The notes beneath the pieces are model-generated. The model worked only from the letters and a program-made list of their open reading frames with translations, had not been told where the DNA came from and searched no databases. 40,547 nt of DNA from Nioella sp. MMSF_3534 (GTDB lineage Bacteria > Pseudomonadota > Alphaproteobacteria > Rhodobacterales > Rhodobacteraceae): the NCBI RefSeq assembly GCF_030732985.1, contig NZ_JASHJX010000044.1, forward strand, positions 1 through 40,547, given 5' to 3'. A program made the position numbers and the translations under genes. Positions 15,496 through 38,023 of this stretch are shown here, in pieces. Positions within the stretch are counted from its first letter, which is position 1. Each line of letters begins with the position of its first letter.

Positions 15496-17931
15496 TCAGC
15501 CGCTGACGCGATGATTTTGCGGATCATATGGGCAGGGGGCGATGACCTCTGCCGCGATCCGGTCGCCGATCAGGTCAAGATGCAGGTTTGTGCCGGGTGC
15601 GGCAAGTGCGGGCTCTACGAAGGCATAGGCGAGATTCATCCCGACCCGGTGGCCCCAATCGCCGGAGGTGACAGTGCCTGCCACCCGGTCACCCGCCAAG
15701 ACCGAGGAACCGGGCGTTGCCGGGCGGTCGGTGGCATCAATCCGCAAGGTGACCAGCCTGCGGGCAGGCCCCTTTGCAACGCGCGCCTCCAACGCTGATT
15801 TGCCAATGAAATCAGCTTTGTCGAGCTTAACAAACCGCTCCAGCCCGGTTTCGAACGGGTCGAATTCGGTCAGCAGATCGGCCTTCCAGTGCAGGTATCC
15901 CTTTTCCATCCGCATGGACTCGATGGCGCGCGCGCCGAAAAGGTGCAGGCCATGCGCCTTGCCCGCCTTTCGCAGTGCCAGATAGGCGGCGTAGAGCTGG
16001 TTGTTTGGCACATGGATTTCATAGGCGAGTTCGCCCGAGAAGCTGACGGACATGACCGTGGCGGGGGCGATGCCGACAAGGCCTTCCCGCACCGAAAGCC
16101 ACGGGAAGGCATCCGCCGACCAGTCGCCACGGGACACGGCGGACAGCACGTCGCGCGCTTTGGGGCCTGCAAGGACCAGGATCGTCATGTCATTGGTGAG
16201 TGAGCGGATCTGCACGTCCTCGCCAGGTCGCAGATGGTGCGTCAGCCAGTCCATATCATGTTGTTCCGCCGCCGCCGCAGACCCGTACCAGATGCGATCC
16301 GGGCCACGGTGGGAGGCGGGCAGGTTGGCGATGGTGGCCTCTGACTTGATCATACCGTGGTGGTTCAGCAGATAGCCAAGCCCCACCTTTCCGGGCTTGC
16401 GCGTCACCCGCCCGCAGATCATCCGGTCGAGGAAACCATGGGCATCCGCGCCGGTGATCTCATAGCGATTGAAGCCGTTCACCTCCGCCAGCCCCACGCC
16501 CTCGCTGACCGCTTTCACGTCCCGCGCGACAATGTCGAAGACCTCGTTGAAGCGGAAGCCGAGCGTTTCGTGGAAATCGGGCGCGGGTTTGAGGAACTCC
16601 ATCCGTTCCCATCCATTCACGACCGTGAACTCCGCGCCTTCCGCCGCCAGAACCGGCGTCAGCGGCGTCGTCTTGGCGGGGCGGCCAGCGGGGCGGTGTT
16701 CATGGGGGAAGTGAAAGCGGAACTCGTTCTGGTAATCCTCGATCGCCTTCAGCGCGCATAGTTCCACGTTGCCGTGCCCGGTGAACCGGCGCGGGTCCAG
16801 CACCCAGGTGTCGTAGCAGGCCTCGCCATGGACGATCTGCTGCGCCAGCAACCAGCCATGCCCGCCGCCTTCGCCAAGACCGGCCCGCAAGCCTATGATG
16901 CAAAACGCATTTCTCTTGCCGGGGATGGGGCCGACCAGTGGCGCGCCATCAATCGTATAGGTGATGGGACCATTGACCACGGTCTTGATCCCCACCTCTG
17001 TCAGCGCGGGCATCCGCTCGAACGCGCCTTCCAACACGTCGGTGATGCGGTCGAGATCGTCGGGGCAGAGATCCATGGTGAAATTGGGGTCGATCCCGTC
17101 CATGCCCCATGTCTTGCAATCCTGTTCATAGAACCCGATCAGCAACCCGGTCTTTTCCTGTCGGCAATAATAGTCGCTGATCGGGCAGCGCAGCAGGGGC
17201 ATCCGGTGGCCCGCCTGAACGATGCCGGGGATTTCCTCGGTGATGAAATACTGATGCTCCATCGACATGACGGGGTGATGCACCCCCATCATCGCGCCCA
17301 CCTCATTCACCCGGTAGCCGCAGGCGTTGATCACAACATCGGTGTGAATCTCGCCCTTGGACGTTTCCACGATCCAGGTGTCATCCTGAAGCTGCCGCAG
17401 CCCCGTGACCGGGGTAAACCGATGCACCTCGGCCCCCGCCCTCCGCGCCCGCCGCGCCAGTGCCTGACACAGCTGCGCGGGGTCGATATCGCCATCCATC
17501 GGATCCCAGAGCCCGCCAATCAAATTGTCAGTCGAAATCAACGGATGCCGCCGCGCACATTCCTCTGCGTCGATCACCTCGAAATGCACCCCCATTCCCC
17601 GCGCCATCGAGGCGAAATGGCGGTAGCCGTCCATCTGCGCCTCGGTGTTGGCCAGCCGGATGCCGCCATCGCCGTGGTGGTAGTTGATGGGATAGTCCGG
17701 GTCTTCGGCCAGTTCCTTGTAAAGCGCGATGGAATGGCTTTTCAGCCCCACCATCGTCTGGTTCATCCCGAAATTCGTGACCTGCGCCGCCGAATGCCAT
17801 GTGGTGCCAGAGGTCAGCTCGTCCCGTTCCAGCAGCATGACATCGGTCCAGCCCTCCTGCGTCAGGTGGTAGAGCGTGGAGCATCCGGCGATGCCGCCGC
17901 CGATCACGACGGCCTTGGTGCGGGTTTTCAT
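15496..17931 (-). CDS. Dimethylglycine/sarcosine dehydrogenase-like flavoprotein with GcvT folate domain (first copy)
   Basis: An 811-residue two-part enzyme. The N-terminal DAO-type domain (about 1-370) starts AVVIGGGIAGCSTLYHL and contains TSGTTWHSAAQV. His46 there aligns with the histidine that covalently holds FAD in dimethylglycine dehydrogenase. A linking FAO-M region and a C-terminal GcvT-like domain (about 430-811) follow; in known enzymes this passes the formaldehyde-level carbon to tetrahydrofolate. The likely reaction is oxidative N-demethylation of a secondary or tertiary amine. AAGGACACAG precedes the ATG. It is divergent from the mttB-like gene over a gap with a strong palindrome, which suggests joint control. 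The substrate could be dimethylglycine, sarcosine or a product of the MttB-like enzyme; sequence alone does not decide. Confidence 0.88.
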   Translation of the reverse strand: MKTRTKAVVIGGGIAGCSTLYHLTQEGWTDVMLLERDELTSGTTWHSAAQVTNFGMNQTMVGLKSHSIALYKELAEDPDYPINYHHGDGGIRLANTEAQMDGYRHFASMARGMGVHFEVIDAEECARRHPLISTDNLIGGLWDPMDGDIDPAQLCQALARRARRAGAEVHRFTPVTGLRQLQDDTWIVETSKGEIHTDVVINACGYRVNEVGAMMGVHHPVMSMEHQYFITEEIPGIVQAGHRMPLLRCPISDYYCRQEKTGLLIGFYEQDCKTWGMDGIDPNFTMDLCPDDLDRITDVLEGAFERMPALTEVGIKTVVNGPITYTIDGAPLVGPIPGKRNAFCIIGLRAGLGEGGGHGWLLAQQIVHGEACYDTWVLDPRRFTGHGNVELCALKAIEDYQNEFRFHFPHEHRPAGRPAKTTPLTPVLAAEGAEFTVVNGWERMEFLKPAPDFHETLGFRFNEVFDIVARDVKAVSEGVGLAEVNGFNRYEITGADAHGFLDRMICGRVTRKPGKVGLGYLLNHHGMIKSEATIANLPASHRGPDRIWYGSAAAAEQHDMDWLTHHLRPGEDVQIRSLTNDMTILVLAGPKARDVLSAVSRGDWSADAFPWLSVREGLVGIAPATVMSVSFSGELAYEIHVPNNQLYAAYLALRKAGKAHGLHLFGARAIESMRMEKGYLHWKADLLTEFDPFETGLERFVKLDKADFIGKSALEARVAKGPARRLVTLRIDATDRPATPGSSVLAGDRVAGTVTSGDWGHRVGMNLAYAFVEPALAAPGTNLHLDLIGDRIAAEVIAPCPYDPQNHRVSG

Positions 17932-18000
17932 GGGGCTGTGTCCTTAGGCTTTTGCGGAACTGTCAGTGCAGATGCGCCATGCGGCAAGGGCCGTGTCGTG

Positions 18001-18019
18001 GTTTCGAGAAAGTCGAAAC
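18001..18019. promoter_or_regulatory. Perfect 7-bp-arm palindrome, candidate LysR operator
   Basis: GTTTCGA-GAAAG-TCGAAAC lies in the 181-base gap between the divergent flavoprotein and mttB-like genes. The inner part, TTCGA-N5-TCGAA, fits the T-N11-A layout of LysR-type sites. The same core appears at 20622-20636 in front of the nearby LysR gene, suggesting one regulator for both promoters. Confidence 0.6.
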
Positions 18020-18112
18020 TGATCTGAGAAATCCTCCAGCCCATGCGGTTTGAGTTGCCAGACCGTCCGCAACGAGGCTTTGCTCGTGTCAGGCGGGACA
18101 GGAGCGGATGAC

Positions 18113-19636
18113 ATGCAGCCAGCGGGCAGGCGATCAGGCGGGCGGCGCGACCGGTTGGCGGCGCGGGCGAGGGGCCCTGTGAACCCCTGTCCTCCGGGGC
18201 AGCGCGGCGGGCAATATGCGCCGCTGACGGGGCAGGAGTTGCGGGCGATCCATGACACCGCCCTGCGCCTGCTGGCAGAGCTCGGCATGGGCGAGGTGCC
18301 CGACCGTCTGCGCCGCGATCTGCTGACAGCGGGCGCGGTCGAGGCTTCAAACGGCCGCGTTCTGATACCCCGTTCGCTGACGGAGGACGCCATTGCCCGC
18401 GCCGCCAAACGCTTTGTCCTGCACGGTCAGGACGAGGCGCGATCCATCGAGGTGGGGGGCGATGCCGTCCATTTCGGAACCGGCGGCGCGGCGGTTCAGA
18501 CGCTGGATTTGGAGACCGGGCTCTATCGTCCCTCCACCTTGCAGGACCTGCGCGATTTCACCCGTTTGCAGGACACCCTGCCCAATGTCAGCTGGTTCAC
18601 CCGCTGCTGCATCGCGACCGATATGCCCGACGAGTTTTCGCTCGATGTGAACACGGTGCATGCGTTGGTCAGCAATACCACGAAACCGGTGGCAACCGCG
18701 TTCACGCTGGCCCATCACGTGGCCCCGATCGTGCAGATGCTGGATGTGGTGGCAGGCGGGGAGGGCGCATTCAGCAAGCGACCTTTCGTCAAGGCGCATA
18801 TCAGCCCGGTGATTTCGCCCATGCGGTTCGGCGAGGACGCGGTGGATGTGGTCTATGAGTGTATCGCCCATAACATCCCCATGTCCTGCATCACCGCCGC
18901 GCAATCGGGGGCGACAGCCCCGGCGACGCTGGCGGGGTTTCTGGCGCAGTCGCTGGCCGAAACGCTGGCGAGCCTCGTCATGGTTCACGCGCTGAAACCC
19001 GGTCATCCCATGGTGTTTTCCAACTGGCCACTGGTCATCGACCTGCGCACCGGGGCGTTTGCGGGCGGCGGCGGAGAGATTGCGGTGATGAACGCGGCCT
19101 CGGCGCAGTTGTCGAACTGGCTTGGCTTGCCGTCGGGCGTGGCGGCCTCGATGACAGACGCCAAGGCCATCGACGCGCAATATGGGGTGGAAAAGGGGCT
19201 GACGGCGCTGGCGGCGGGGCTGGCGGGGGGCAACCTGATCTACGAAAGCTCGGGCATGACGGCCTCGCTGCTTGGCGCAAGTTTCGAGGCGTTCGTGATC
19301 GACAATGAAATGCACGCCGCCATCTACCGGATGCTGCGCGGGGTGGAGGTCAGCGAAGAGACGCTCGGCTTTGACACGATCTGCGACGTGGTGTTGGGCG
19401 AGGGGCATTTTCTGGGTGCCGACCAGACCCATGCGGCGATGGAACGGGACTATTTCTACCCAAAGCTTGCCGACCGCGATGCGCCGATGACCTGGGCGGA
19501 CAAGGGCGCGCCGGATATGTGGGCGCGGGCCAGGGCCCGTGTTAGGACGATCCTTTCCGACCACGATCCGCAATACCTTTCGCCCGCATGCGACGCAGAG
19601 ATCAGGGCGCTGTTTCCCGGCGTCATCCGCAACTGA
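18113..19636 (+). CDS. MttB-like trimethylamine methyltransferase family protein, non-pyrrolysine
   Basis: A 507-residue member of the MttB/MtgB superfamily (COG5598). Characterised members transfer a methyl group from quaternary or tertiary amines to a corrinoid protein. After a basic, low-complexity N-terminus (QPAGRRSGGRRDRLAARAR), the family core begins LRAIHDTALRLLAELGMG and runs to the C-terminus, including SGVAASMTDAKAIDAQYG and DQTHAAMERDYFYP. There is no in-frame amber codon, so it is not pyrrolysine-dependent, in line with glycine-betaine-type MtgB proteins. AGGAG before the ATG at 18113 fixes the start. No corrinoid-binding protein or reductive activator lies nearby, so its methyl acceptor is unclear. 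It diverges from the DMGDH-like flavoprotein and ends one base before the convergent LysR gene. Confidence 0.88.
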   Translation: MQPAGRRSGGRRDRLAARARGPVNPCPPGQRGGQYAPLTGQELRAIHDTALRLLAELGMGEVPDRLRRDLLTAGAVEASNGRVLIPRSLTEDAIARAAKRFVLHGQDEARSIEVGGDAVHFGTGGAAVQTLDLETGLYRPSTLQDLRDFTRLQDTLPNVSWFTRCCIATDMPDEFSLDVNTVHALVSNTTKPVATAFTLAHHVAPIVQMLDVVAGGEGAFSKRPFVKAHISPVISPMRFGEDAVDVVYECIAHNIPMSCITAAQSGATAPATLAGFLAQSLAETLASLVMVHALKPGHPMVFSNWPLVIDLRTGAFAGGGGEIAVMNAASAQLSNWLGLPSGVAASMTDAKAIDAQYGVEKGLTALAAGLAGGNLIYESSGMTASLLGASFEAFVIDNEMHAAIYRMLRGVEVSEETLGFDTICDVVLGEGHFLGADQTHAAMERDYFYPKLADRDAPMTWADKGAPDMWARARARVRTILSDHDPQYLSPACDAEIRALFPGVIRN

Positions 19637-19637
19637 C

Positions 19638-20606
19638 CTATTGGTTCAGAATCCTGAATTCATCTGCCAGCCAGGGATGCGCGGCCACCATCGGCGCGAT
19701 GATCCGGTCTTGGAGCAAGGGGCGAAGCGTGCGATCCAGTGTCTCGAACAGGCTTTGGGGCAGATCCTCGGCCCGAAAGATCGACAGCCGCCGAGCAAAG
19801 CCCGGACCCGGCAGCGGCATGATGGCGATCCGGTCGTGATGGCGGTCGGAACTGGCCACGTTCAGGGCTGTGGTGACGGTCCAGGCCTCGCCTTCGGCGA
19901 TCAGCGACAGGATGGCCGGTGTGCTTTCAAACTCCAGCCGCGAGGGCAGGTCGATCCTTTGCCGCCGCAACTGTGCCTCGATCCGGCGGCCCATGAGCTG
20001 TTTGCGCGAATAGCGCAGGAAGGGCAGATCGACCCGCGCCCCCAGATATTCCCCGGCCGAGTCCTTGCGCCCCTTGGGCACGACCAGCACATAGGGGTCG
20101 CGCAACAGCGGCGCTTCGGTCAGGCGCATCACGCGGAATTCGGCGGCGGAGGCAATGCCAAGGTCGATTTCGTCGCTTTGCAGAAGCGTCAGGATGTCAT
20201 GGCTGGGGCGCGACAGGAACGAGAAGGAACAGGCGGGCAGGGCGGCAGACAGGCTGGCGGCAAGCGCGGGGGTGACCTCGGTGTCCAGATCCTCGATCAT
20301 CGCGATGCGCAGCGACCGGATCAGCGCGGCGGGGTCCTTGGACCAGACCTCGGAAATCCCCTTGCGCAGCAGCATCAGCGAGTCATCGACACGGGCCAGC
20401 AGGATGTCGCCCTCTTGCGTCAGTTTCATCGGGCGCTTGCCATGGTCGATCAGGGCAACACCTACGGCGTCCTCAAGGCAGGCCAGGTGGTGCGACACGG
20501 TGCTGATCGAGATTTCCAGCCGCCGCGCCGCCGCCTGAACAGAGCCGCTGCGAGCCACCGCCTGAAAGACCTCCAGCCATTTGAGGCTGAGCTTGCTACG
20601 TTCCAT
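19638..20606 (-). CDS. LysR family transcriptional regulator
   Basis: A 322-residue LysR-type regulator. The N-terminal helix-turn-helix reads LKWLEVFQAVARSGSVQAAA, then RRLEISISTVSHHLACLEDAVG. The periplasmic-binding-like effector domain covers about residues 90-300. The reading frame stays open far upstream, but the ATG at 20606 begins exactly where the family begins, and GGGGACCG precedes it. It converges with the mttB-like gene and diverges from the carboxymuconolactone-decarboxylase-like gene. Its own upstream region holds TTCGA-N5-TCGAA, also found before mttB, so it probably controls both and itself. The inducer is unknown; a methylated amine is a reasonable guess from context. Confidence 0.92.
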   Translation of the reverse strand: MERSKLSLKWLEVFQAVARSGSVQAAARRLEISISTVSHHLACLEDAVGVALIDHGKRPMKLTQEGDILLARVDDSLMLLRKGISEVWSKDPAALIRSLRIAMIEDLDTEVTPALAASLSAALPACSFSFLSRPSHDILTLLQSDEIDLGIASAAEFRVMRLTEAPLLRDPYVLVVPKGRKDSAGEYLGARVDLPFLRYSRKQLMGRRIEAQLRRQRIDLPSRLEFESTPAILSLIAEGEAWTVTTALNVASSDRHHDRIAIMPLPGPGFARRLSIFRAEDLPQSLFETLDRTLRPLLQDRIIAPMVAAHPWLADEFRILNQ

Positions 20607-20621
20607 TCGCGGTCCCCGACA

Positions 20622-20636
20622 TTCGAATATGTCGAA
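20622..20636. promoter_or_regulatory. TTCGA-N5-TCGAA palindrome upstream of the LysR gene
   Basis: The perfect inverted repeat TTCGA-ATATG-TCGAA lies 15 bases before the LysR start, inside the 252-base divergent gap (20607-20858). It matches the core of the site at 18001-18019, including the 5-base spacer. Its closeness to the start codon suits negative autoregulation. Nothing else structured is seen in the rest of the gap. Confidence 0.58.
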
Positions 20637-20858
20637 GCTAGAGAGGCATTGCGCATTCGGCAATGGCAGAGTTTCACCAGTGATCGGGGTCGGGTCCATT
20701 TCCGTCTGATCTCGGACGCCGACTGCGCGGGAAGGCGGGCACAATACAGTCGACGCGGTTCGGGACATGGGGGAGATGAAGGATATTCGCCTTGTGGAAT
20801 CGCCGTTCTGCGGGCTGAAGTGGCCGGATCCAAAGTGCCTCAAAACAAGGACGAGAGA

Positions 20859-21248
20859 ATGAGCGTTTTTGACGAAGACCTGTTCCTGAAAGGACTGGAA
20901 CAGCGCAAGGCCACGGTCGGGGCGGAGTATGTGGACAGGAACCTTGCCGCTGCCGACGATTTCACCCGGCCCTTTCAGGAGGCGATGACCGCGTGGTGTT
21001 GGGGTTTTGGCTGGGGCGATGATGCGATCGACCCCAAGACGCGCAGCATGATGAACCTCGCCATGATCGGGGCGCTCGGCAAGATGCATGAATGGGAACT
21101 GCACTGCCGGGGGGCGCTGAACAACGGTGTCTCGAAAGAAGAGATCCGCGCCATCATCCACGTGGTCGCGATCTATTGCGGCGTGCCGCAGGCGCTGGAA
21201 TGCTTCCGCGCTGCCCGCAAGGTTCTGGAAGAGGCGGGCGAGCTTTAG
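20859..21248 (+). CDS. Carboxymuconolactone decarboxylase (PcaC/AhpD-fold) family protein
   Basis: A 129-residue protein of the carboxymuconolactone decarboxylase family. Typical segments are visible: a helical DDFTRPFQEAMTAWCWGFGWG, DPKTRSMMNLAMIGALGKMHEWELHCRGALNNGVSKEEI, and IYCGVPQALECFRAARKV. The EW-LH-RGALNNG core is the usual PcaC pattern. It lacks the AhpD-type CxxC, so a peroxidase role is unlikely. AAGGACGAGAG precedes the ATG at 20859; an open frame continues far upstream without a family match. The stop codon overlaps that of the convergent panE-like gene (TTAG). No other beta-ketoadipate pathway genes are nearby, so a decarboxylase role in aromatic degradation is not supported by context. 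Confidence 0.88.
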   Translation: MSVFDEDLFLKGLEQRKATVGAEYVDRNLAAADDFTRPFQEAMTAWCWGFGWGDDAIDPKTRSMMNLAMIGALGKMHEWELHCRGALNNGVSKEEIRAIIHVVAIYCGVPQALECFRAARKVLEEAGEL

Positions 21249-22611: not shown

Positions 22612-24087
22612 TCAGGCGCTGCGCAGGTTGGGGATGGCGGGCTGTGTCCCCAGGGTCTCGTCCAGCCTGGCATGGCTGTCATCGGCAAGTGCCGCCGCGA
22701 TGGCGCGACGTAAGGTGGGGGCCGCGTCTGACATCTGACCGCTGGCAAGCGCCGGGCGCACAACGCCCGCCATGATCCGCGCATAGGCCGTTTTGCCCCG
22801 CATCAGCGTATCGGAATAGCCTTTCAGAACGCGGGGCAGTTCGGCCAGCGCCTCTGCGAAGTCAGGCGCGTGGGGCAGGGCTTTGTCCATCGCCGCCAAC
22901 CACTCGGCAATTGCCGCCTGTTCCTGCGCGAACCGGTAGGACCGGCGGCGGATACGGCGAAACCCCGCCATCAGGCGCAACATCCAGTAGCCTGCAACAC
23001 CGTTGGACCGGACATGGATGCCGCGCCCCATGAAGGGCAGACCCTTGCCCGCCTCCACCCGCACCATGATGCGCGCGCCAAGGCGGACAGGCAGGATATC
23101 GGCGATCTCCTCGGCGCGGGGTTTGAGGTATTCCGTCACCGTCATCACCTGTCCGGGCTGCATTTGCGCCTCGGCCCGGATGCGCGCGAAACGCTCTGGC
23201 CTTGTTTTCAGATCGGCCACTCGGGCAATGTCCTCATAAGCCATCCACAGCGCCAGACGACGGCAGGCTTCCTTCACCGCATGGGCGGCGCTTGGGATGG
23301 ACAGGTCCGCCGCCGCGATCAGCCTGTCGGCATGGGCGCGGAAGGTCTGGCCATAGGCCGCGTCCTGGTAGTCGGTGCAGCGCTCCACCCCGAGGCGGAT
23401 CACCTCGGCGATATCAGCGGGAATGTCGGATGCCGGGGGCGCGGCGACCGGCGCAGGCGTGTCGCGCAAGTCCTGCACCGCTTGCGCGGCGGCGTCGAAC
23501 CCGGCGCGGCTGGCGGTTGCGGACCGGCCTTCCCCCAGAACCGCGCGAGACCCCGCAATGTCCCATGGCAACACACCACTTCCCGCCAGCGCCCCGAACA
23601 TGGTGGCGCTGACGAAAGTGGCGCTGTCTTCGGCGATCTGGCCCAGATCCAGCAGGTAGGCATCCCGCGCCAGCGCCTCGGCTGTGCGCCGCACGTTGTC
23701 CTCGCTATAGCGCCCGTCACCCAACTGGATCTTTTCCGCCGTCGAATAGGTGCGCGCGGTCGAGGATATGAGCGTCGTCAGCTTGGGCGAGACGAAGCCC
23801 GCCGCCATCACCCGCGCCGTTTCTAGCAGTTCGGATGACACCACCACATCGACCCGCCCCGGCATCGGCACGAGGCTGAGGACGGAGCCAACCGCATCCT
23901 TGCCCGCGATCTCGATATAGTAGCTGGTCGATCCGGTGCGCTGCGCCACGCCGGGCACCGAAGTGGCCTGCGCGACGAAGCCGGCGTCCCGCGCGGCCTG
24001 CACGATCCAGTTCATCAGAACGCCGCCGCCTTCACCGCCAAGCGCCGCCAGCAGAATGCGCAGGGGGGGATTTCCCGCGCGTGTCAT
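22612..24087 (-). CDS. iorB: Indolepyruvate oxidoreductase subunit beta (with DUF6537-like extension)
   Basis: A 491-residue beta subunit. The N-terminal gamma-type domain of 2-oxo acid oxidoreductases (about 1-190) has LRILLAALGGEGGGVLMNWI and RTGSTSYYIEIA. The C-terminal half (about 240-460, LALWMAYEDIARVADLK) resembles the DUF6537 region of fused IOR proteins. This longer form is seen in proteobacteria, whereas archaeal IorB is only about 200 residues. The ATG at 24087 overlaps the iorA stop as ATGA; the frame is open upstream but only shadows iorA. Together with IorA it should convert an aryl-pyruvate plus CoA to an arylacyl-CoA and CO2. It is translationally coupled to iorA and followed by a thioesterase. 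Confidence 0.92.
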   Translation of the reverse strand: MTRAGNPPLRILLAALGGEGGGVLMNWIVQAARDAGFVAQATSVPGVAQRTGSTSYYIEIAGKDAVGSVLSLVPMPGRVDVVVSSELLETARVMAAGFVSPKLTTLISSTARTYSTAEKIQLGDGRYSEDNVRRTAEALARDAYLLDLGQIAEDSATFVSATMFGALAGSGVLPWDIAGSRAVLGEGRSATASRAGFDAAAQAVQDLRDTPAPVAAPPASDIPADIAEVIRLGVERCTDYQDAAYGQTFRAHADRLIAAADLSIPSAAHAVKEACRRLALWMAYEDIARVADLKTRPERFARIRAEAQMQPGQVMTVTEYLKPRAEEIADILPVRLGARIMVRVEAGKGLPFMGRGIHVRSNGVAGYWMLRLMAGFRRIRRRSYRFAQEQAAIAEWLAAMDKALPHAPDFAEALAELPRVLKGYSDTLMRGKTAYARIMAGVVRPALASGQMSDAAPTLRRAIAAALADDSHARLDETLGTQPAIPNLRSA

Positions 24088-26231
24088 GCCACCGCCCCCA
24101 ACGTGAATATCCGGCGCAACCGGCTGCGTGTTCTGTCCCACCAGCCGGGATTGCTGATCACTTCGGCCCGCCAGAAGGAGGGACAGAGCGTCGCCGCATG
24201 GGCGACCTCGCCGCACAGGCCGCAGCCGACGCAGCCATTGGTGACATGGGCGACGGGATCGGTTTTCAGGGGATCGGTTGCGGTTTTCACGGTCAGGGTC
24301 GGGCAGCCGGACAGGCGAATGCAGGAATGATCGCCGGTGCAGGTGTCTTCATCGACGCCAAAGCGGGTGCGCACGACGCGCTCCCCTTCGGCCAGAGCCT
24401 TGGCGCGGATCGGTTTCACGCGCCGCTGCCGTTCCAGCTGGCATTCGCCCTCGGCCACGATCACCTTCAACCCGCTGAACTTGGTCGAGAACGCCTCGCG
24501 CAGCGTGTCGCGCATTTGCGAGACCTTATAAGTATGCACCGTGCGCAGCCATTTGACACCGACGCCCTTCAGCGCATCCTCGATCGTGGTCTCGCCATGG
24601 GTCGCGCTTTTCTCGGCCGCCGCCAGTTTCAGCGCCGGATCGGGCGAGGAGATGACCTCCTGCGTTCCGGTGGCCGAGGTGTAGCCGTTCTTCATGATCA
24701 CCAGCACCCCGTCGCCGCCGTTCAACAGCCGAGAGGTGACGCCGGACAGCAAGCCATTGTGCCAGAAGCCGCCATCGCCCATCACGGCGAGCGGGCGCTT
24801 TTGCTGAAAACTGGCGACCGAGGCGTTGGAGGCAAGGCTCATCCCATAGCCAAGAATGGAGTTGCCGAAGTTGAATGGCGCGAAGGTTGCGAAGGCGTGG
24901 CAGCCGATATCGGCAGAGTAGTGAACCGGCCCGATCTCCTGCTGGGTCAGCTTCAGCGCGGCGAAGAAGGGGCGTTCCGGGCAGCCAGTGCAAAAGCTTG
25001 GCGGGCGTGGGGGGACAGGGGCGGCCAGCAACCGCTGCGCCTCTGCCCGGAGCGCCTCGCTCTCCTCGGCATAGGCGGTGTCGCCCAATTGGTTGCCGAT
25101 GCCCGGCAGATGGTCGCGCAGGAAGGTGCCGACGCCCTTGGCCATGACCTCGGACGTGTATTCACCCGCCATTGGCAGGATGTCCTTGCCCGCCAGCACC
25201 ACCGGCGATTTCGCGCGGCGCAGGATCGTTCCGATCTCATTCTCGATATATTCCGGCTGGCCTTCCTCCAGCACCAGAACCGCACGTTTGCCTTCCGCAA
25301 AACCCAGGATCTCTTCCGGTACCAGAGGATAGACGACGTTCAGCGCCATGATCGGCAGGTCACAGTTGCCTTCCGCATCGGCCAGCCCCAGTTCCGCCAA
25401 GGCCCGGATCAGCGCGTTATACAGCCCGCCCTGAACGACGATCCCCACATCGCCCTGCGCGCCGTCGAAGACCTCATTCAGACGGTGCTCGCGAATGAAT
25501 GCCCGCGCGGCGGTCATGCGCTCGCTGCTCTTCTTGCGCTCATGTCCGAAGGTCACGGGCGGATGCGCCAGTTGTTCATATTGGTGAGGCGCAGGCTCCG
25601 CCAGCAACCGCCGCCCCGAAATCGCGGGCGCGATATTGTCCTTGGCCTCGAACGCCCCCTGCACATGGCAGGCGCGGATGCGCAGTTCCATGATCACCGG
25701 CGTGTTCGATGCCTCTGACAGCTCGAACGCCCGTTCCACGCATGTCACGATAGAGGGCAGGTTCGGGCGCGGGTCCATCAGCCACAGGGTCGATTTCATC
25801 GCATAGGCATGGGTGCGTTCCTGGATGACGCTGGACCCTTCACCGTAGTCCTCGCCCACGATGATCAGCGCGCCGCCCATGACGCCGGGCGAGGCGAGGT
25901 TCGACAGCGCGTCCGCCGCCACATTGGTGCCGACGATGGATTTCCATGTTACCGCGCCGCGCACCGGATACATGATCGACGCCCCCAGCATTGCCGCGGC
26001 AGAGGCCTCGTTCGTACAGGGTTCCACATGGACGCCAAGTTTGGCCATGTCAGGTGCGGCTTGCACCATGACGTCAATCAGGTGCGAGACCGGTGCGCCC
26101 TGATAGCCGCCCACATAGGACACGCCCGATTGCAGCAGCGCCTTGGTGACGGCCAGAATACCTTCGCCATGAAAGGTCTCACCTGCACCGAGCTTCAGCT
26201 TTTCGATTTCCCTGGCGAATGAGACTTCCAT
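24084..26231 (-). CDS. iorA: Indolepyruvate oxidoreductase subunit alpha
   Basis: A 715-residue thiamine-diphosphate and Fe-S subunit. In order: the pyrimidine-binding domain (GGYQGAPVSHLIDVM near residue 42, where many relatives have GYPGTPS); a middle domain with EEGQPEYIENEIGTIL; the TPP domain with FCTGCPERPFF, then MGDGGFWHNG and NGYTSATGTQE; and a C-terminal ferredoxin-like domain with CTGDHSCIRLSGC and CVGCGLC. The ATG at 26231 is chosen because GGGAGGGGCC precedes it and the family starts there. A longer in-frame start at 26309 would run into the divergent promoter. It leads the leftward operon iorA-iorB-thioesterase-panE-like. The electron acceptor in aerobes may not be ferredoxin. 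Confidence 0.93.
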   Translation of the reverse strand: MEVSFAREIEKLKLGAGETFHGEGILAVTKALLQSGVSYVGGYQGAPVSHLIDVMVQAAPDMAKLGVHVEPCTNEASAAAMLGASIMYPVRGAVTWKSIVGTNVAADALSNLASPGVMGGALIIVGEDYGEGSSVIQERTHAYAMKSTLWLMDPRPNLPSIVTCVERAFELSEASNTPVIMELRIRACHVQGAFEAKDNIAPAISGRRLLAEPAPHQYEQLAHPPVTFGHERKKSSERMTAARAFIREHRLNEVFDGAQGDVGIVVQGGLYNALIRALAELGLADAEGNCDLPIMALNVVYPLVPEEILGFAEGKRAVLVLEEGQPEYIENEIGTILRRAKSPVVLAGKDILPMAGEYTSEVMAKGVGTFLRDHLPGIGNQLGDTAYAEESEALRAEAQRLLAAPVPPRPPSFCTGCPERPFFAALKLTQQEIGPVHYSADIGCHAFATFAPFNFGNSILGYGMSLASNASVASFQQKRPLAVMGDGGFWHNGLLSGVTSRLLNGGDGVLVIMKNGYTSATGTQEVISSPDPALKLAAAEKSATHGETTIEDALKGVGVKWLRTVHTYKVSQMRDTLREAFSTKFSGLKVIVAEGECQLERQRRVKPIRAKALAEGERVVRTRFGVDEDTCTGDHSCIRLSGCPTLTVKTATDPLKTDPVAHVTNGCVGCGLCGEVAHAATLCPSFWRAEVISNPGWWDRTRSRLRRIFTLGAVA

Positions 26232-26267
26232 CTGTGGCCCCTCCCTGTGCGTCCTGAACATCCGGTG

Positions 26268-26281
26268 CGAAAACCCTTTCG
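26268..26281. promoter_or_regulatory. Small inverted repeat in the iorA-LysR divergent gap
   Basis: CGAAA-ACCC-TTTCG lies in the 80-base gap (26232-26311) between iorA and the divergent LysR gene. It is the only dyad I see there and a modest candidate for the LysR operator. The arms are short, so this is weak support. Confidence 0.3.
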
Positions 26282-26311
26282 TCAAACGGATAGGCGCAAT
26301 AATCTTCATTC

Positions 26312-29489: not shown

Positions 29490-30632
29490 TCAGGCGGCGG
29501 CGATGGACTTCTTGGGGTCGTAGAAAGGGAATTCGACCATGGTGGCGCGGGTCGGGCCCGACTTGGTCACCACTTCGACGTCCGATCCTAGAACGGCGTG
29601 CTCCACCGACACCATCGCCAGCGCGATATTCTGTTTCAGGCGCGGCGAATAGACGGCCGAGGTCACCTTGCCGATGGTCTCGCCACCCTGGTTGATCGGC
29701 CAGAAGGTGGTGTTCGGCCCCTGCAGCGGGTCGCAGTCGATGACCAGACCGATCTGCTTGCGGGTGATGCCCTCTTCCTTGATGCGCTTCAGCGCGGCCT
29801 TGCCGATGAACTCCGCCTCCATGTCGAGATTGACCAGACGGTCGAAACCAAGCTCGAACGGGTTGGTGTGAATGTCGGCGTCGGCGTGATAGCTCAGCAT
29901 CCCGCCTTCGATCCGGCGGATCGACGAAGTGTGGCCCGGCTTCAGACCGTGCTCCATGCCGGCGGCCATGATCCGTTCCCACAGCGCATCGCCCTGAGTG
30001 CCGTCACGCAGGTAGAGTTCATATCCCAGTTCGCTGGACCAACCGGTGCGCGACACGATCAGCGGGATGCCGTCGAGATCGACTTCACGCAGCCAGTAGT
30101 ATTTCAGGTCCATGATCTCTTCGCCGAACAGCGCCTGCATGATCAGCCCCGATGTCGGACCCTGAAGCTGCAGCGGCGACACGTCGGGTTCGCAGATCGT
30201 CACGTCCATCCCCGAATGAACCGCCACACCCTGCGCCCAAAGCAGGATGTCGCTGTCAGCCAGCGAGATCCAGAAGTGGTTTTCCGCCAGGCGCAGCAGG
30301 ATCGGATCATTCAGAATGCCGCCATCGGCATTGGTGATCAGGATGTATTTGCACTGGCCCACGGCCATCTTGGACAGATCGCGCGGGGTCAGCATCTGAA
30401 CGAAGCGCGCCGCATCCGGTCCGGTGATCTCGACCTGACGTTCAACAGCCACGTCACACAGGATCGCGTCGTTCACGAGGTTCCAGAAATTCTGTTCCGG
30501 ATCGCCGAAATCACGAGGGATATACATATGATTGTAAACGGAAAAACCCTTTGCACCCCACCGGACGGTGGCATCGAAATAGGGAGATTTGCGGATCTGG
30601 GTGCCAAACCCGAAGTCGTCTGCTTGTGTCAT
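29490..30632 (-). CDS. DmdA-like GcvT-family folate-dependent demethylase
   Basis: A 380-residue aminomethyltransferase-fold protein. The N-terminal part (IRKSPYFDATVRWGAKGFSVYNHMYIP) and the following VAVERQVEITGPDAARFVQMLTPRDL and ISLADSDILLWAQGVA resemble dimethylsulfoniopropionate demethylase DmdA more than GcvT of the glycine cleavage system. The C-terminal barrel domain covers about 280-370. DmdA moves a methyl group from DMSP to tetrahydrofolate. The middle segment SRTGWSSELGYELYL differs from the SGYSKQGGFE type I recall for proven DmdA, so the substrate may be another methylated sulfur or nitrogen compound. GAGGGCGAAC precedes the ATG. It heads the leftward osmC/crotonase group and follows an Lrp gene. 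No glycine cleavage genes (gcvH, gcvP) are nearby. Confidence 0.78.
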   Translation of the reverse strand: MTQADDFGFGTQIRKSPYFDATVRWGAKGFSVYNHMYIPRDFGDPEQNFWNLVNDAILCDVAVERQVEITGPDAARFVQMLTPRDLSKMAVGQCKYILITNADGGILNDPILLRLAENHFWISLADSDILLWAQGVAVHSGMDVTICEPDVSPLQLQGPTSGLIMQALFGEEIMDLKYYWLREVDLDGIPLIVSRTGWSSELGYELYLRDGTQGDALWERIMAAGMEHGLKPGHTSSIRRIEGGMLSYHADADIHTNPFELGFDRLVNLDMEAEFIGKAALKRIKEEGITRKQIGLVIDCDPLQGPNTTFWPINQGGETIGKVTSAVYSPRLKQNIALAMVSVEHAVLGSDVEVVTKSGPTRATMVEFPFYDPKKSIAAA

Positions 30633-30789: not shown

Positions 30790-31281
30790 CTACCTATTGG
30801 CCTGTGCAATCAGTTTGGCAAGGTTCGGGCGGCTGACCTTGACCTGCCGGGTGGCGATATAGGTCATGTATCGATTGATCTCGACTTCGGAGGAGAGCAG
30901 CACCTCGATCACCGCCTGGAATGCCGCCAGATTCGGGGTGGCGGTCTTGATCACGTAATCCATCCCGCCCCCGGTCGCGATGCATTCGGTGATCTCGTCC
31001 AGCGAGTTGATCAGCGCTTCGAAGCGTTCGAAATCGGCCTTGCGGTGATTGGTCAGCGATATGGTCACCACGACCTGGGTGAAATCTACGATCCGCTCCA
31101 GCGCAATGTCCGCGTGATAGCCCCTGATATATCCAGCCGCCTTCAGCCGGTCGAGGCGGGCCCAACACGGGGTAGGGGACAGGTGCACAAGCTCGGCAAG
31201 GCGGGTCTTGCTCAGTTGCCCATGCTGCTGAACCGCGCTGAGAATACGGATATCCGTGATGTCGAGTCCGGTCTTTTTCAT
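30790..31281 (-). CDS. Lrp/AsnC family transcriptional regulator (second copy)
   Basis: A 163-residue Lrp-type regulator. The winged helix-turn-helix is at the N-terminus (LDITDIRILSAVQQHGQLSK, then LAELVHLSPTPCWARLDRLKAAG). The C-terminal ligand domain spans about 70-150. The ATG at 31281 is preferred, with AAGAG seven bases away; a GTG 33 bases upstream is an alternative. It lies in the same direction as, and 157 bases before, the DmdA-like gene, and 149 bases from the MarR gene. It may regulate the DmdA-like/osmC group. The family call is certain; ligand and targets are inferred from position only. Confidence 0.92.
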   Translation of the reverse strand: MKKTGLDITDIRILSAVQQHGQLSKTRLAELVHLSPTPCWARLDRLKAAGYIRGYHADIALERIVDFTQVVVTISLTNHRKADFERFEALINSLDEITECIATGGGMDYVIKTATPNLAAFQAVIEVLLSSEVEINRYMTYIATRQVKVSRPNLAKLIAQANR

Positions 31282-32128: not shown

Positions 32129-32659
32129 ATGCGACATGCGCTCGAGTTTTTTCGCAAGAACACACCCACGCTGCGGGAACCCGCCGCCGAGGATGGTGCG
32201 GAGATCTGGGACCTGGTGCGCGCGTGCAAGCCGCTGGACGAGAACTCCATGTATTGCAACCTGATCCAGTGCGATCACTTCCGCGATACCTGCGTCGTGG
32301 CCGAGCTTGACGGCAAGGTTGTCGGCTGGGTGTCGGCCTATGTGCTGCCCTATGACCCGGAAACCCTGTTCGTCTGGCAGGTGGCCGTGTCCGAGACGGC
32401 GCGCGGTACCGGCTTGGGCTCGCTCATGCTGTCGAGCCTGCTGGAACGTCCGGCCTGTGCCGATGTCCATCGCCTTCAAACCACGATCACGGCCGATAAC
32501 GAGCCGTCCTGGGCGCTGTTCCGCAAATTCGCCGGGCATCGCGACTCCAAGCTCGACGTGCAGGCGCATTACACGCAGGCGCTGCATTTCCGGGACCGCC
32601 ACAGCACCGAGCACATGGTCACAATCGACCTGCAGGAGCGGTTGCGCAACGCGGCCTGA
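32129..32659 (+). CDS. ectA: L-2,4-diaminobutyrate acetyltransferase EctA
   Basis: A 176-residue GNAT acetyltransferase that acetylates L-2,4-diaminobutyrate at the gamma-amino group, the second step of ectoine synthesis. The acetyl-CoA loop is VAVSETARGTGLGSLML near residues 85-105. The N-terminal LREPAAEDGAEIWDLVRACKPLDENSMY stretch and the C-terminal STEHMVTIDL are typical of EctA. GAGG ten bases before the ATG supports the start. It is first in ectA-ectB-ectC-ask, divergent from a MarR regulator, and so is the promoter-proximal gene of a salt-induced operon. Cytoplasmic. Confidence 0.97.
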   Translation: MRHALEFFRKNTPTLREPAAEDGAEIWDLVRACKPLDENSMYCNLIQCDHFRDTCVVAELDGKVVGWVSAYVLPYDPETLFVWQVAVSETARGTGLGSLMLSSLLERPACADVHRLQTTITADNEPSWALFRKFAGHRDSKLDVQAHYTQALHFRDRHSTEHMVTIDLQERLRNAA

Positions 32660-32713
32660 GCCCCGCGTCGCGACCGCCTGCACCTTCCCCATAAAAACCC
32701 AAAAGGACCCATT

Positions 32714-34003
32714 ATGCCGACTGCCAAGTCAGCCGAAATTTCCGTATTCAAACGCCGCGAGTCCGAGGCGCGCAGCTATTGCCGCAGCTTCGACAAGCTG
32801 TTCACCAGTGCCGCGGGATCGGAACTCACCGATTCCAAGGGGCGCAGCTATATCGACTTTCTGGCCGGGTGCTCGTCGCTGAACTACGGCCACAACGACC
32901 CTGACATGAAACAGGCCCTGATCGACCATATCGCGTCGGACGGTCTGGCGCATGGGCTCGACCTGCATACCGATACCAAGGCCGCGTTCCTGGAGGCCTT
33001 CGATACCCATATCCTCAATCCGCGCGGCATGGATCACAAGGTGATGTTCACCGGTCCGACCGGGGCCAACGCGGTCGAGGCGGCGATGAAACTGGCCCGC
33101 AAGGTGACCGGGCGCACCAATATCATTGCCTTCACCAACGGCTTTCATGGCGTGACACTCGGGGCGCTCGCGGCGACCGGCAATGGCTATCACCGCGGTG
33201 GCGCGGGCATGACGCTGCACGGCGTCACGCGCATGCCCTATGACGGCTATTTCGGCGCGGCGACGGATTCCGCCGATTTCCTGGAGGCGATGCTGACCGA
33301 CAGCTCCAGCGGCATTGACGCGCCTGCGGCGATCCTGCTGGAAACGGTGCAGGGCGAGGGCGGCCTGAACGCGGCCAGCCCGGAATGGCTGCGGCGCGTG
33401 GCGGATCTTGCCCGCGAGCATGGTGCGTTGCTGATCGTTGACGATATCCAGGCCGGCTGCGGCCGGACCGGCACCTTCTTCTCCTTCGAGAATATGGATG
33501 TCATGCCGGATATCGTGACCATGGCAAAATCCGTGTCAGGCTTTGGCCTGCCAATGTCATTGCTTCTGGTGCGTCCCGAATACGACGTGTTCGGCCCGGC
33601 CGAACATAACGGCACCTTCCGTGGCAACACCCATGCCTTCGTGACCGCCCGCATCTCGATCGAGAAGTTCTGGAGCGATCCGGGCTTCGCGAACGACATC
33701 TCGCACAAGGCACGCCTGCTGACCGACGCGCTGCAAGGCGTGGCCGATCTGGTGCCCGGCGCGACGCTGAAAGGCCGTGGCATGATGCAGGGTTTGGATG
33801 TGGGGTCTGGCGACCTCGCCGCCGATATCTGCGCGCGCGCCTTCCAGAAGGGCCTGATCATCGAAACCTCGGGCAACGAGGATCAGGTGGTCAAGGTTCT
33901 GGCCCCGCTGACCACGCCCGAGACGCTGTTCCGCAAGGGGTTGAACATCCTTCTCGACGCGTCGCGCGATGCGACGCTCGGCACCAAGATAGCGGCGGAG
34001 TAA
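32714..34003 (+). CDS. ectB: Diaminobutyrate-2-oxoglutarate transaminase EctB
   Basis: A 429-residue class-III PLP aminotransferase that makes L-2,4-diaminobutyrate from aspartate semialdehyde with glutamate as donor, the first committed ectoine step. The cofactor region includes TGPTGANAVEAAMKLARK (about 113-130) and DDIQAGCGRTGTFF. The Schiff-base lysine is Lys272 in MAKSVSGFGLPMS. Length is normal. AAAAGGACCC precedes the ATG, 54 bases after ectA, and three bases separate its stop from ectC. The aspartate semialdehyde it uses would be fed by the aspartokinase at the operon end. Confidence 0.97.
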   Translation: MPTAKSAEISVFKRRESEARSYCRSFDKLFTSAAGSELTDSKGRSYIDFLAGCSSLNYGHNDPDMKQALIDHIASDGLAHGLDLHTDTKAAFLEAFDTHILNPRGMDHKVMFTGPTGANAVEAAMKLARKVTGRTNIIAFTNGFHGVTLGALAATGNGYHRGGAGMTLHGVTRMPYDGYFGAATDSADFLEAMLTDSSSGIDAPAAILLETVQGEGGLNAASPEWLRRVADLAREHGALLIVDDIQAGCGRTGTFFSFENMDVMPDIVTMAKSVSGFGLPMSLLLVRPEYDVFGPAEHNGTFRGNTHAFVTARISIEKFWSDPGFANDISHKARLLTDALQGVADLVPGATLKGRGMMQGLDVGSGDLAADICARAFQKGLIIETSGNEDQVVKVLAPLTTPETLFRKGLNILLDASRDATLGTKIAAE

Positions 34004-34006
34004 GCC

Positions 34007-34408
34007 ATGATTGTCAGGGATTTCAACAAGATCATCGAAGAAGAGCGCGACCGCGTCGTTTCGGATGCCGAATGGTCCTCGGTGCGCATGCTGCTGGCGG
34101 GTGACGGGATGGGGTTTTCCTTTCATATCACCTTTCTCAATGCCGGTTCCGAGCATGTGTTCGAGTACAAGAACCATTTCGAAAGCGTCTATTGCATGCA
34201 AGGCAAGGGCTCGATCACCGATCTCGCCACCGGCGAAACGCACGAGATCAGGCCCGGTGTCATGTACGCGCTGAACGAACATGACCGTCACGTGCTGCGT
34301 GCCGAGGAAGAACTGGCGATGGCCTGCGTGTTCAATCCGCCGGTGACCGGCAAGGAAGTGCATCGCGAAGACGGCTCCTACGCTGCTGCGGAAGAATTGG
34401 CTGACTGA
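34007..34408 (+). CDS. ectC: Ectoine synthase EctC
   Basis: A 133-residue cupin enzyme that cyclises N-gamma-acetyl-diaminobutyrate to ectoine. It opens with the standard MIVRDFNKIIEEERDRVVSD. The cupin core runs through GFSFHITFLNAGSEHVFEYK, SVYCMQGKGSITDLATGE and GVMYALNEHDRHVLRAEEE, giving the metal-binding face. It starts three bases after ectB and ends three bases before ask, so the operon is tightly packed. No ectoine hydroxylase (ectD) follows, so 5-hydroxyectoine is not expected from this locus. Confidence 0.97.
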   Translation: MIVRDFNKIIEEERDRVVSDAEWSSVRMLLAGDGMGFSFHITFLNAGSEHVFEYKNHFESVYCMQGKGSITDLATGETHEIRPGVMYALNEHDRHVLRAEEELAMACVFNPPVTGKEVHREDGSYAAAEELAD

Positions 34409-34411
34409 CCC

Positions 34412-35839
34412 ATGACCCATACTGTCGAGAAAATCGGCGGCACGTCCATGTCGAGACTGGACGCGCTGCGCGATACCCTGTTCATCGGTGACCGGAACGG
34501 TGCCGACCTCTATGGTCGCATGTTCGTGGTTTCGGCCTTCGGGGGCGTGACCGACCTGCTCCTGGAGCACAAGAAATCCGGCGATCCCGGCGTCTACGCC
34601 CGCTTTGCCGGGGCAGAGTCCGATCATGGCTGGCACGGCGCACTGGACCGCGTCGCAGACGCGATGACAGACGCGCATGGCGCGGTGCTGGATCATCCCG
34701 CCGACCGGGAGCAGGCGGATGCCTTCGTTCTTGAACGGATCGAGGGCACCCGCAATTGCCTTGTGGATCTGCGCAGGCTTTGTTCCTACGGCCATTTCCG
34801 CCTGTCCGAGCATCTGTTACAGGTGCGCGAATTGCTGTCGGGCCTTGGCGAAGCGCATTCGGCCTTCACCGCGACCCTGTTGTTGCAACGCGCCGGGGTG
34901 AATGCCCGGCTGGTGGACCTGACCGGCTGGCGCGATGAGCAGACGGTCGATCTTGAAAGTCGCATCAAGGGCGGCATTGAAGGGATTGATATTAATTCGG
35001 AAATGCCGATTGTCACCGGCTATGCGCAATGCGCCGAGGGTTTGATGCGCGAATTCGATCGCGGCTATTCCGAGATCACCTTTTCGCGCCTCGCGGCCCT
35101 TTCCGGCGCGCGGGAGGCGATCATTCACAAGGAATTCCACCTGTCATCTGCCGACCCGCGCCTTGTCGGGGCGGACAAGGCGCAGAAGATCGGCCACACC
35201 AACTATGACGTGGCCGACCAGCTGTCGAACATGGGGATGGAGGCGATCCACCCGAAGGCGGCCAAGACCCTGCGGCAGGCGGATGTTCCGCTGCGCGTCA
35301 CCAATGCGTTCGAACCGGGCGATCCCGGCACGCTGATCGACGACCGTCCGGCGGAAACGCCCGAGGCCGAGATCGTGACCGGTCTCGATATCATCGCGCT
35401 GGAAGTGTTCGAACAGGACATGGTCGGGGTGAAGGGCTATGATGCCGCGATCCTCGACGTGCTGACGCGTCACAACGTGCGGATCGTGTCGAAGCTGTCC
35501 AATGCCAACACGATCACCCATTACGTGGACGCCTCGCTGAAGATCATGCGGCGCGTGGAGAAGGACCTTGAACGGCTCTATCCGGCGGCGCGCATCACCT
35601 CGCGAAAACTGGCCATCGCCTCGGTCATCGGCCGGGATCTGAGCGGGCTGTCCATCCTGAGCCGCGGCTTGCAGGTCATTGCCGAAGCCGGGCTTGAGGC
35701 CGTGGGCGCCTTGCAGGGACCGCGCAGCGTCGATGTTCAGTTCGTCATGGAATGCGGCGATCTGGACAAGACGATCGGCGTCCTGCACGCGTCCCTGATC
35801 CCGGCGGCAGGCGACGGCACCCTGTCAAGGGCCGCCTGA
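34412..35839 (+). CDS. ask: Ectoine-specific aspartate kinase (Ask_Ect)
   Basis: A 475-residue aspartokinase that phosphorylates L-aspartate, feeding aspartate semialdehyde to EctB. The kinase domain begins VEKIGGTSMSRLDAL and includes FVVSAFGGVTDLL. TGYAQCAEGLMREFDRGYSE and the NTITHYV segment of the C-terminal ACT domains follow. Specialised Ask_Ect enzymes in ect operons are typically less inhibited by lysine and threonine than housekeeping LysC; feedback behaviour here is inferred from operon position. It ends 16 bases from the convergent Rieske gene, with no obvious terminator between them. Confidence 0.95.
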   Translation: MTHTVEKIGGTSMSRLDALRDTLFIGDRNGADLYGRMFVVSAFGGVTDLLLEHKKSGDPGVYARFAGAESDHGWHGALDRVADAMTDAHGAVLDHPADREQADAFVLERIEGTRNCLVDLRRLCSYGHFRLSEHLLQVRELLSGLGEAHSAFTATLLLQRAGVNARLVDLTGWRDEQTVDLESRIKGGIEGIDINSEMPIVTGYAQCAEGLMREFDRGYSEITFSRLAALSGAREAIIHKEFHLSSADPRLVGADKAQKIGHTNYDVADQLSNMGMEAIHPKAAKTLRQADVPLRVTNAFEPGDPGTLIDDRPAETPEAEIVTGLDIIALEVFEQDMVGVKGYDAAILDVLTRHNVRIVSKLSNANTITHYVDASLKIMRRVEKDLERLYPAARITSRKLAIASVIGRDLSGLSILSRGLQVIAEAGLEAVGALQGPRSVDVQFVMECGDLDKTIGVLHASLIPAAGDGTLSRAA

Positions 35840-35855
35840 CAGGGGTGGGGGCGGG

Positions 35856-36947: not shown

Positions 36948-37040
36948 GTGATCAGTCCACTGAGAAGTTGAAACGATGATGCCAGCAGGGCAGGGTGGAA
37001 GGCCTGCGCGCCAAAGCGGATTGTTCGATGGGCGTCAGGG

Positions 37041-37952: not shown

Positions 37953-37978
37953 GATTGACGATGGTATATTTGTGCGAT
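37932..37978. promoter_or_regulatory. Two direct repeats at the RpiR start, candidate operator
   Basis: TGGTATGTTTGTATCAT (37932-37948) and TGGTATATTTGTGCGAT (37962-37978) agree at 13 of 17 bases and start exactly 30 bases apart. They straddle the RpiR start codon and lie within 100 bases of the divergent DMGDH-like start. Equal spacing near three helical turns suits binding of an RpiR dimer pair and autoregulation. Confidence 0.5.
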
Positions 37979-38023
37979 TAGCCTGTCTACAGGAAAAGTG
38001 ACTCGCCAACAGGATTGCCCCAA

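Follow-up and report, generated by a model that had tools for sequence, protein, structure and literature searches.

A TTCGA-N5-TCGAA palindrome as the probable operator of a LysR-type regulator and a putative betaine-demethylation gene pair in Nioella

In a stretch of 40,547 nucleotides from Nioella sp. MMSF_3534 (contig NZ_JASHJX010000044.1, analyzed at its full length and called the window below), the palindrome TTCGA-N5-TCGAA very probably marks where a LysR-type switch protein acts on its own gene and on a putative betaine-demethylation gene pair; many related marine bacteria carry the palindrome at the corresponding position. The pair is formed by a dimethylglycine dehydrogenase (DMGDH)-like gene (positions 15496–17931, minus strand) and a divergent gene for a non-pyrrolysine methyltransferase of the MttB superfamily (mttB, 18113–19636, plus strand); the regulator gene lysR (19638–20606, minus strand) follows.

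According to our model, the palindrome would be an operator of the T-N11-A form bound by the LysR-type regulator of 19638–20606. One bound site (operator A) in the 181-bp DMGDH/mttB intergenic region would serve both divergent genes, and a second site (operator B) directly upstream of lysR would provide autoregulation, the ligand-bound regulator presumably activating the pair and repressing itself. With glycine betaine or a similar betaine as the quaternary amine, the MttB protein would transfer one of its methyl groups to the single MtgC-like corrinoid protein of the cell, and the flavin/folate enzyme of the DMGDH family would pass the next methyl group of the dimethylamine product into folate C1 metabolism. 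For this reading as a whole, i.e., an autoregulated LysR acting through operators A and B on an MttB/DMGDH pair that demethylates a quaternary amine and feeds an MtgC-like protein, we estimate a probability of about 0.8. Sequence comparison gives good support to the operator, to its connection with this LysR, and to a shared regulon. Autoregulation via operator B, the order of the demethylation steps, and the use of a shared MtgC are plausible parts of the model, in which glycine betaine would be the favored substrate.

Palindrome copies in the window and in the genome

Operator A (GTTTCGA-GAAAG-TCGAAAC, 18001–18019) contains the core TTCGA-GAAAG-TCGAA at 18003–18017, which its flanks extend to the 7-bp arms GTTTCGA/TCGAAAC. 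It is located 71 bases from the DMGDH start (17931, minus strand) and 95 bases from the mttB start (18113). Operator B (core TTCGA-ATATG-TCGAA, 20622–20636) adjoins lysR, starting 16 bases upstream of the regulator start (20606, minus strand), with 222 bases to the start of the next gene (20859, plus strand). A preliminary description of this DNA had reported two copies with the same 5-base spacer in two divergent promoters, and both are present; it had also likened them to LysR sites of the T-N11-A form, and by sequence, a dyad of this form does lie near the regulator gene and the target promoter.

Four exact copies of TTCGA-N5-TCGAA occur in the window versus 0.05 expected from dinucleotide shuffles. 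The two further copies lie within the coding sequences of DMGDH (15850–15864) and of an Lrp-type gene (31018–31032), and a regulatory role for them was rejected because of their strong coding scores. In the whole assembly (4.15 Mb), there are 37 exact copies, compared with 3 of the reversed control pattern, a count that lends some weight to the view that two copies of a genome-common word fell between genes by chance. With a gene caller based on a codon-usage model built on 20 window genes, which replaced a clustering of all neighboring open reading frames because shadow frames dominated the latter, 32 of the 37 copies are found within called genes (30 of 33 outside the window and 2 of 4 in it), whereas operators A and B are non-coding. 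Two of the other five copies (C27:40294 and C50:107626) fall in open frames with positive coding scores; the remaining three, 18003, 20622, and C11:15560, score below zero in all six frames. The wider pattern TTTCG-N7-CGAAA has 8 genome copies (control 3), and only those at 18002 and C11:15559 score as non-coding. Because the pattern reads well as codons, TTCGA-N5-TCGAA by itself is not rare in the genome, and its use as a rare genome-wide mark was rejected; the rarity belongs to the non-coding occurrence of the palindrome. As for the genome-wide frequency that the preliminary description had named as damaging to its proposal, the copies are many, but nearly all are coding. Sites A and B, moreover, keep their positions from genus to genus although the intergenic DNA around them is unalignable, which makes a chance origin of the two operators very improbable.

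The operator at orthologous promoters

The comparison set comprised 110 loci with MttB homologues (30 + 80), in which the DMGDH/mttB intergenic sequence is referred to as the A region. Removal of near-duplicates at 98% MttB identity left 97 loci. Twenty-five of these were excluded because the DMGDH start was missing from the locus or the downstream sequence was too short, 7 with a LysR gene between DMGDH and mttB were set apart, and 65 divergent DMGDH/mttB loci were classed. A convergent LysR gene was counted as linked, including L112, where it overlaps the mttB end, and L035, where it is one inserted gene away; loci without LysR were inspected for at least 900 bases downstream of mttB, and a more distant LysR may be missed.

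A site with at most one mismatch is present in the A region of 25 of the 40 loci with a linked LysR versus 1 of the 25 without (p = 1.2e-6); for the exact site, the figures are 13/40 and 1/25 (p = 0.011). In the 25 loci, the distance from the DMGDH start to the site is near-fixed (median 71 bp, 66–100). Outside the site, the identity among ten loci with the exact site is no better than in shuffled sequence (0.62 versus 0.60), indicating that the site itself is the conserved part. The scan of orthologous promoters that the preliminary description had proposed, naming absence of conservation as evidence against it, was thus carried out and revealed conservation.

When inverted repeats were enumerated (1024 five-mers × 16 spacers), TTCGA-N5 ranked first in both promoter sets, scored separately. 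Exact counts were 16/89 A regions and 15/45 LysR-upstream regions with duplicates included, and 13/40 and 12/40, respectively, with duplicates removed. With at most one mismatch, the site is found in 31/89 A regions (duplicates included) and in 23/45 LysR-upstream regions, whereas 1.5 and 0.4, respectively, are expected from first-order Markov shuffles. Expectation-maximization on the 40 A regions, with no motif supplied, converged on tAgTTTCGAaTTTtTCGAA. The resulting matrix, trained on no LysR-upstream sequence, gives sites of at least 12 bits in 25 of 40 LysR-upstream regions versus 0.4 in shuffles; operator A itself scores 24.9 bits, its region having been in the training set.

Footprinting within the genus was rejected as proof. 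Of 6 genomes assigned to the same genus as the window, 3, source genome included, contain a near-full-length DNA match to 17700–20900, and since Nioella intergenic regions are 97% identical overall, conservation of the site within Nioella says little.

The seven loci set apart contain no exact site, and one of them has a site within one mismatch. These loci (L078, L081, L118, L124, L129, L137, and L036) carry a different LysR with 32–35% identity, and at least L081 and L137 have TTCGG-N5-CCGAA/ACCGAA-like dyad variants close to the DMGDH end, possibly serving this different LysR as its operator. A further arrangement is seen at L153:8195–9628 (genome G163), where a gene resembling, by eye, a pyridoxal phosphate-dependent decarboxylase is inserted between mttB and lysR; both operators are kept despite this insertion (25.6 and 22.3 bits).

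The candidate regulator

The product of lysR belongs to the LysR-type family, with HTH_1 (66 bits) and LysR_substrate (75.5 bits) both over their cut-offs, and has the recognition helix EISISTVSHHLACL. None of the best 25 of its 47 NCBIfam family matches reaches its cut-off, so these provide no named equivalog.

The search for the LysR family covered 295 genomes. For the comparison of recognition helices, 69 LysRs were reduced to 66 at 95% identity, and L051 was dropped for too little upstream sequence, leaving 65. A site of at least 15 bits upstream of their own gene is found for 26 of 47 LysRs with an SHH helix versus 1 of 13 with an SQQ helix (p = 0.003, a value that is optimistic because the LysR sequences are related); the 5 LysRs with neither helix, set apart, have none. 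Given their place in the helix-turn-helix, the SHH/SQQ residues may set the DNA preference. The other LysR homologue of the source genome at E ≤ 1e-50 (C20, 39%, SQQ helix) was rejected as the binder because its 200 upstream bases contain no site.

Outside the mttB cassette, LysR homologues with a site upstream of their own gene were found in four genomes. In G080, the LysR gene adjoins a hisD-family gene, and in G168, G096, and G173, a divergent ABC transporter lies alongside. The binding protein of the G168 transporter has the taurine-binding family TIGR01729 as its best match (154 bits, below the cut-off of 304), and the transporters of G096 and G173 resemble it by eye. In G080 and G096, MttB matches appear only at E-values of 41–46% paralogues, G168 is absent from the genomes listed as having an MttB match, and G173 has a close mttB relative elsewhere in its genome.

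These relatives bear on the question of whether the palindrome is read by a different regulator, the tie to LysR being one of gene neighborhood only. Such a view would account for the many LysR-linked loci without a clear site and for L082, the sole exception among the loci without LysR, in which the site is present with no LysR nearby. The LysR homologues elsewhere in the L082 genome (best 42%), in turn, speak for our model. Against a different regulator, the site stands upstream of LysR homologues beside unrelated genes where no close mttB relative was found (G080, G096, and G168), and its presence tracks the type of recognition helix; we therefore consider a different reader improbable.

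Several observations nevertheless weigh against our model. Fifteen of the 40 LysR-linked loci have no site within one mismatch in the DMGDH/mttB region, 15 of 40 LysR-upstream regions score below 12 bits, and 21 of 47 SHH LysRs have no site of 15 bits upstream of their own gene. Conversely, the A-trained matrix gives at least 12 bits in 4 of the 25 A regions without a linked LysR, and no site precedes the gene of the LysR homologue in the L082 genome. The counts carry no phylogenetic correction. A consensus scan gave no sigma-70-like promoter; a scan for a terminator consensus likewise detected nothing.

The claim of a single methylated-amine regulon made in the preliminary description stands in part. 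A conserved LysR-linked operator is indeed common to the DMGDH/mttB and lysR promoters, but the palindrome follows the LysR subgroup and not methylated amines as such, because in relatives of this LysR it is found with a taurine-type transporter or a hisD-family gene as the neighbor. A broader picture can be put forward tentatively, with odds somewhat below even: LysRs with an STVSHHL-type helix and TTCGA-N5-TCGAA might be reused across Rhodobacterales and some other alphaproteobacteria for the uptake and breakdown of phytoplankton-type osmolytes (betaines via MttB/DMGDH, the taurine-type transporter, the hisD-family dehydrogenase), the DNA code being kept while targets and ligands are swapped, and in Nioella the same regulator might also reach choline-O-sulfate use.

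The demethylation pair and known systems

The DMGDH-like protein combines FAD oxidoreductase and folate-binding GcvT domains in the order DAO, FAO_M, GCV_T, GCV_T_C, which is the architecture of dimethylglycine dehydrogenase, and it matches solved enzymes of this kind with 508 bits (E = 2.8e-151). The MttB homologue (PF06253, 366 bits) contains no in-frame stop and no in-frame amber codon; it is therefore of the non-pyrrolysine type, as had been described. Its score against the pyrrolysine MttB equivalog TIGR02369 is 341.8 bits, below the cut-off of 525, and against the solved glycine betaine methyltransferase (9yce), 197 bits. The closest named MttB relatives are from Nioella sediminis (97%) and N. 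ostreopsis (95%).

The source genome encodes nine MttB homologues and one PF02607 corrinoid-binding protein, whose best family match is MtgC (NF047996, 191.8 bits, below the cut-off of 370); a gene of the betaine--homocysteine S-methyltransferase family (PRK07534, over the cut-off) lies near it, a picture similar to that in Ruegeria pomeroyi (PMC12478193), where MtgC and MtgD are reported to act in methionine synthesis as well as in glycine betaine demethylation. Of the eight other MttB homologues, four, on C50, C72, C30, and C9 (L154, L159, L160, and L161), have DMGDH homologues in the 19 kb around them, and the C72 and C30 stretches also hold a LysR homologue by tblastn, indicating that the MttB–DMGDH–regulator grouping recurs in the genome as paralogous cassettes. 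The scores of the C50 pair weaken the case for glycine betaine as the substrate at our locus: its DMGDH is closer to the solved dimethylglycine dehydrogenases (594 versus 508 bits), and its MttB reaches 203 bits against the solved methyltransferase, compared with 197. Because the C50 pair scores as well or better, the window pair is best called a paralogous demethylation pair, for which glycine betaine is only a candidate substrate.

The same operator and LysR could accordingly serve another substrate, e.g., proline betaine or a carnitine-like betaine, with the DMGDH-like enzyme taking the N-methyl product. Besides the C50 grouping, the presence of nine MttB homologues favors this, as do the reference titles of PMC12478193, which show that MttB-superfamily members exist for carnitine, proline betaine, and gamma-butyrobetaine. 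The window DMGDH-like enzyme is still a strong match to dimethylglycine dehydrogenases, however, and the third non-coding copy of the palindrome in Nioella adjoins a gene for choline sulfatase, an enzyme one step away from choline and glycine betaine. We regard another substrate as a serious alternative, though not the likelier one.

This third site (C11:15560) lies between the choline-sulfatase gene (697 bits, cut-off 433) and a gene for an ABC substrate-binding protein. Its 21 bases are identical in the source genome and two Nioella genomes, and so are about 200 surrounding bases. A site of at least 15 bits is found at these three of 26 choline-sulfatase loci and at none of the 23 others, so it was rejected as a general target. 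No LysR gene was noticed near the C11-type site among the first residues of the proteins called in the 19-kb and 13-kb stretches, five of which were family-scanned. If the window LysR binds this site, the regulon would begin at choline-O-sulfate and extend via choline and glycine betaine as far as dimethylglycine; we take such an extension as a hint only.

Other genes of the window deserve mention. The gene divergent from lysR (20859–21248, plus strand) belongs to the carboxymuconolactone decarboxylase family (PF02627); a homologue was seen in 6 of the 110 MttB loci (L034, L064, L065, L074, L088, and L106), three of them being the window and two Nioella loci, and it is a possible, weakly linked further target of LysR. 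Within 32129–40480, an ectoine cluster, with EctA at 183 bits and EctB at 594 bits (both over cut-off), precedes a Rieske oxygenase, for which GbcA (glycine betaine monooxygenase) is the best NCBIfam match (152 bits, far below the cut-off of 670), and a further DMGDH-like gene, which scores 525 bits against solved DMGDH; the latter two possibly form an oxygen-dependent demethylation set beside the MttB-type one. For the GcvT-family gene at 29490–30632, a comparison with the DMSP demethylase family gave 370 bits, slightly below the cut-off of 410; this gene may encode a DmdA-like enzyme of uncertain substrate. There are also two indolepyruvate-ferredoxin-oxidoreductase-like systems, at 704–4105 and 22612–26309, one a single 1133-amino-acid gene (1610 bits) and the other two genes with POR, DUF6537, and TPP domains.

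The open literature searched contains no description of this LysR, operator, or regulon and no account of how MttB homologues of this group are controlled. The preliminary description did not recognize the regulon as described. The type of pathway, however, is known: demethylation by the MttB-family protein MtgB with MtgC and MtgD has been described in Ruegeria pomeroyi (PMC12478193). That paper names MtgB1 (SPO2108) and MtgB2 (SPO2134) and reports a wide distribution and high expression of MtgBCD-type demethylation genes in the ocean; the terms "LysR" and "promoter" do not occur in its main text.

Among the nutrients of the sea, glycine betaine and osmolytes related to it hold an important place. 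With a concrete operator and regulator, one can test which betaine induces which of the nine MttB homologues in one cell; the operator also provides a DNA signal by which MttB and transporter genes of unknown role could be placed in regulons.

In R. pomeroyi DSS-3, as in our model, non-pyrrolysine MttB-family proteins feed a shared MtgC in an aerobic roseobacter (PMC12478193), the probable counterpart here being the single PF02607 protein; our locus differs in its arrangement, with mttB and a DMGDH-like gene pointing away from each other and lysR coming after mttB. With MtgB (9yce, 2qne), the window protein shares the superfamily, the lack of an in-frame stop, and a match over residues 35–500, but its score is only 197 bits, and a paralogue in the same genome has 203. 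Mammalian dimethylglycine dehydrogenase (4p9s, 4pab, 5l46) is matched over its full length with the same domain order, although the C50 paralogue is closer to it than the window enzyme. The control of trimethylamine use by TmaR/TmoR in R. pomeroyi (PMC13390433) is likewise a roseobacter example of transcriptional regulation devoted to the catabolism of methylated amines; in contrast to our locus, the abstract of that paper names tmm, tdm, and downstream genes as targets, with no MttB or DMGDH-type genes among them.

Taken together, these comparisons support a new regulon of an already known kind, in which a LysR would control MttB-type demethylation. Regulators of the LysR type typically act through a T-N11-A operator located in a divergent promoter, with a further site next to the gene of the regulator itself. 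Our system differs from it in its target genes and, as far as the literature searched shows, also in its operator and regulator subgroup.

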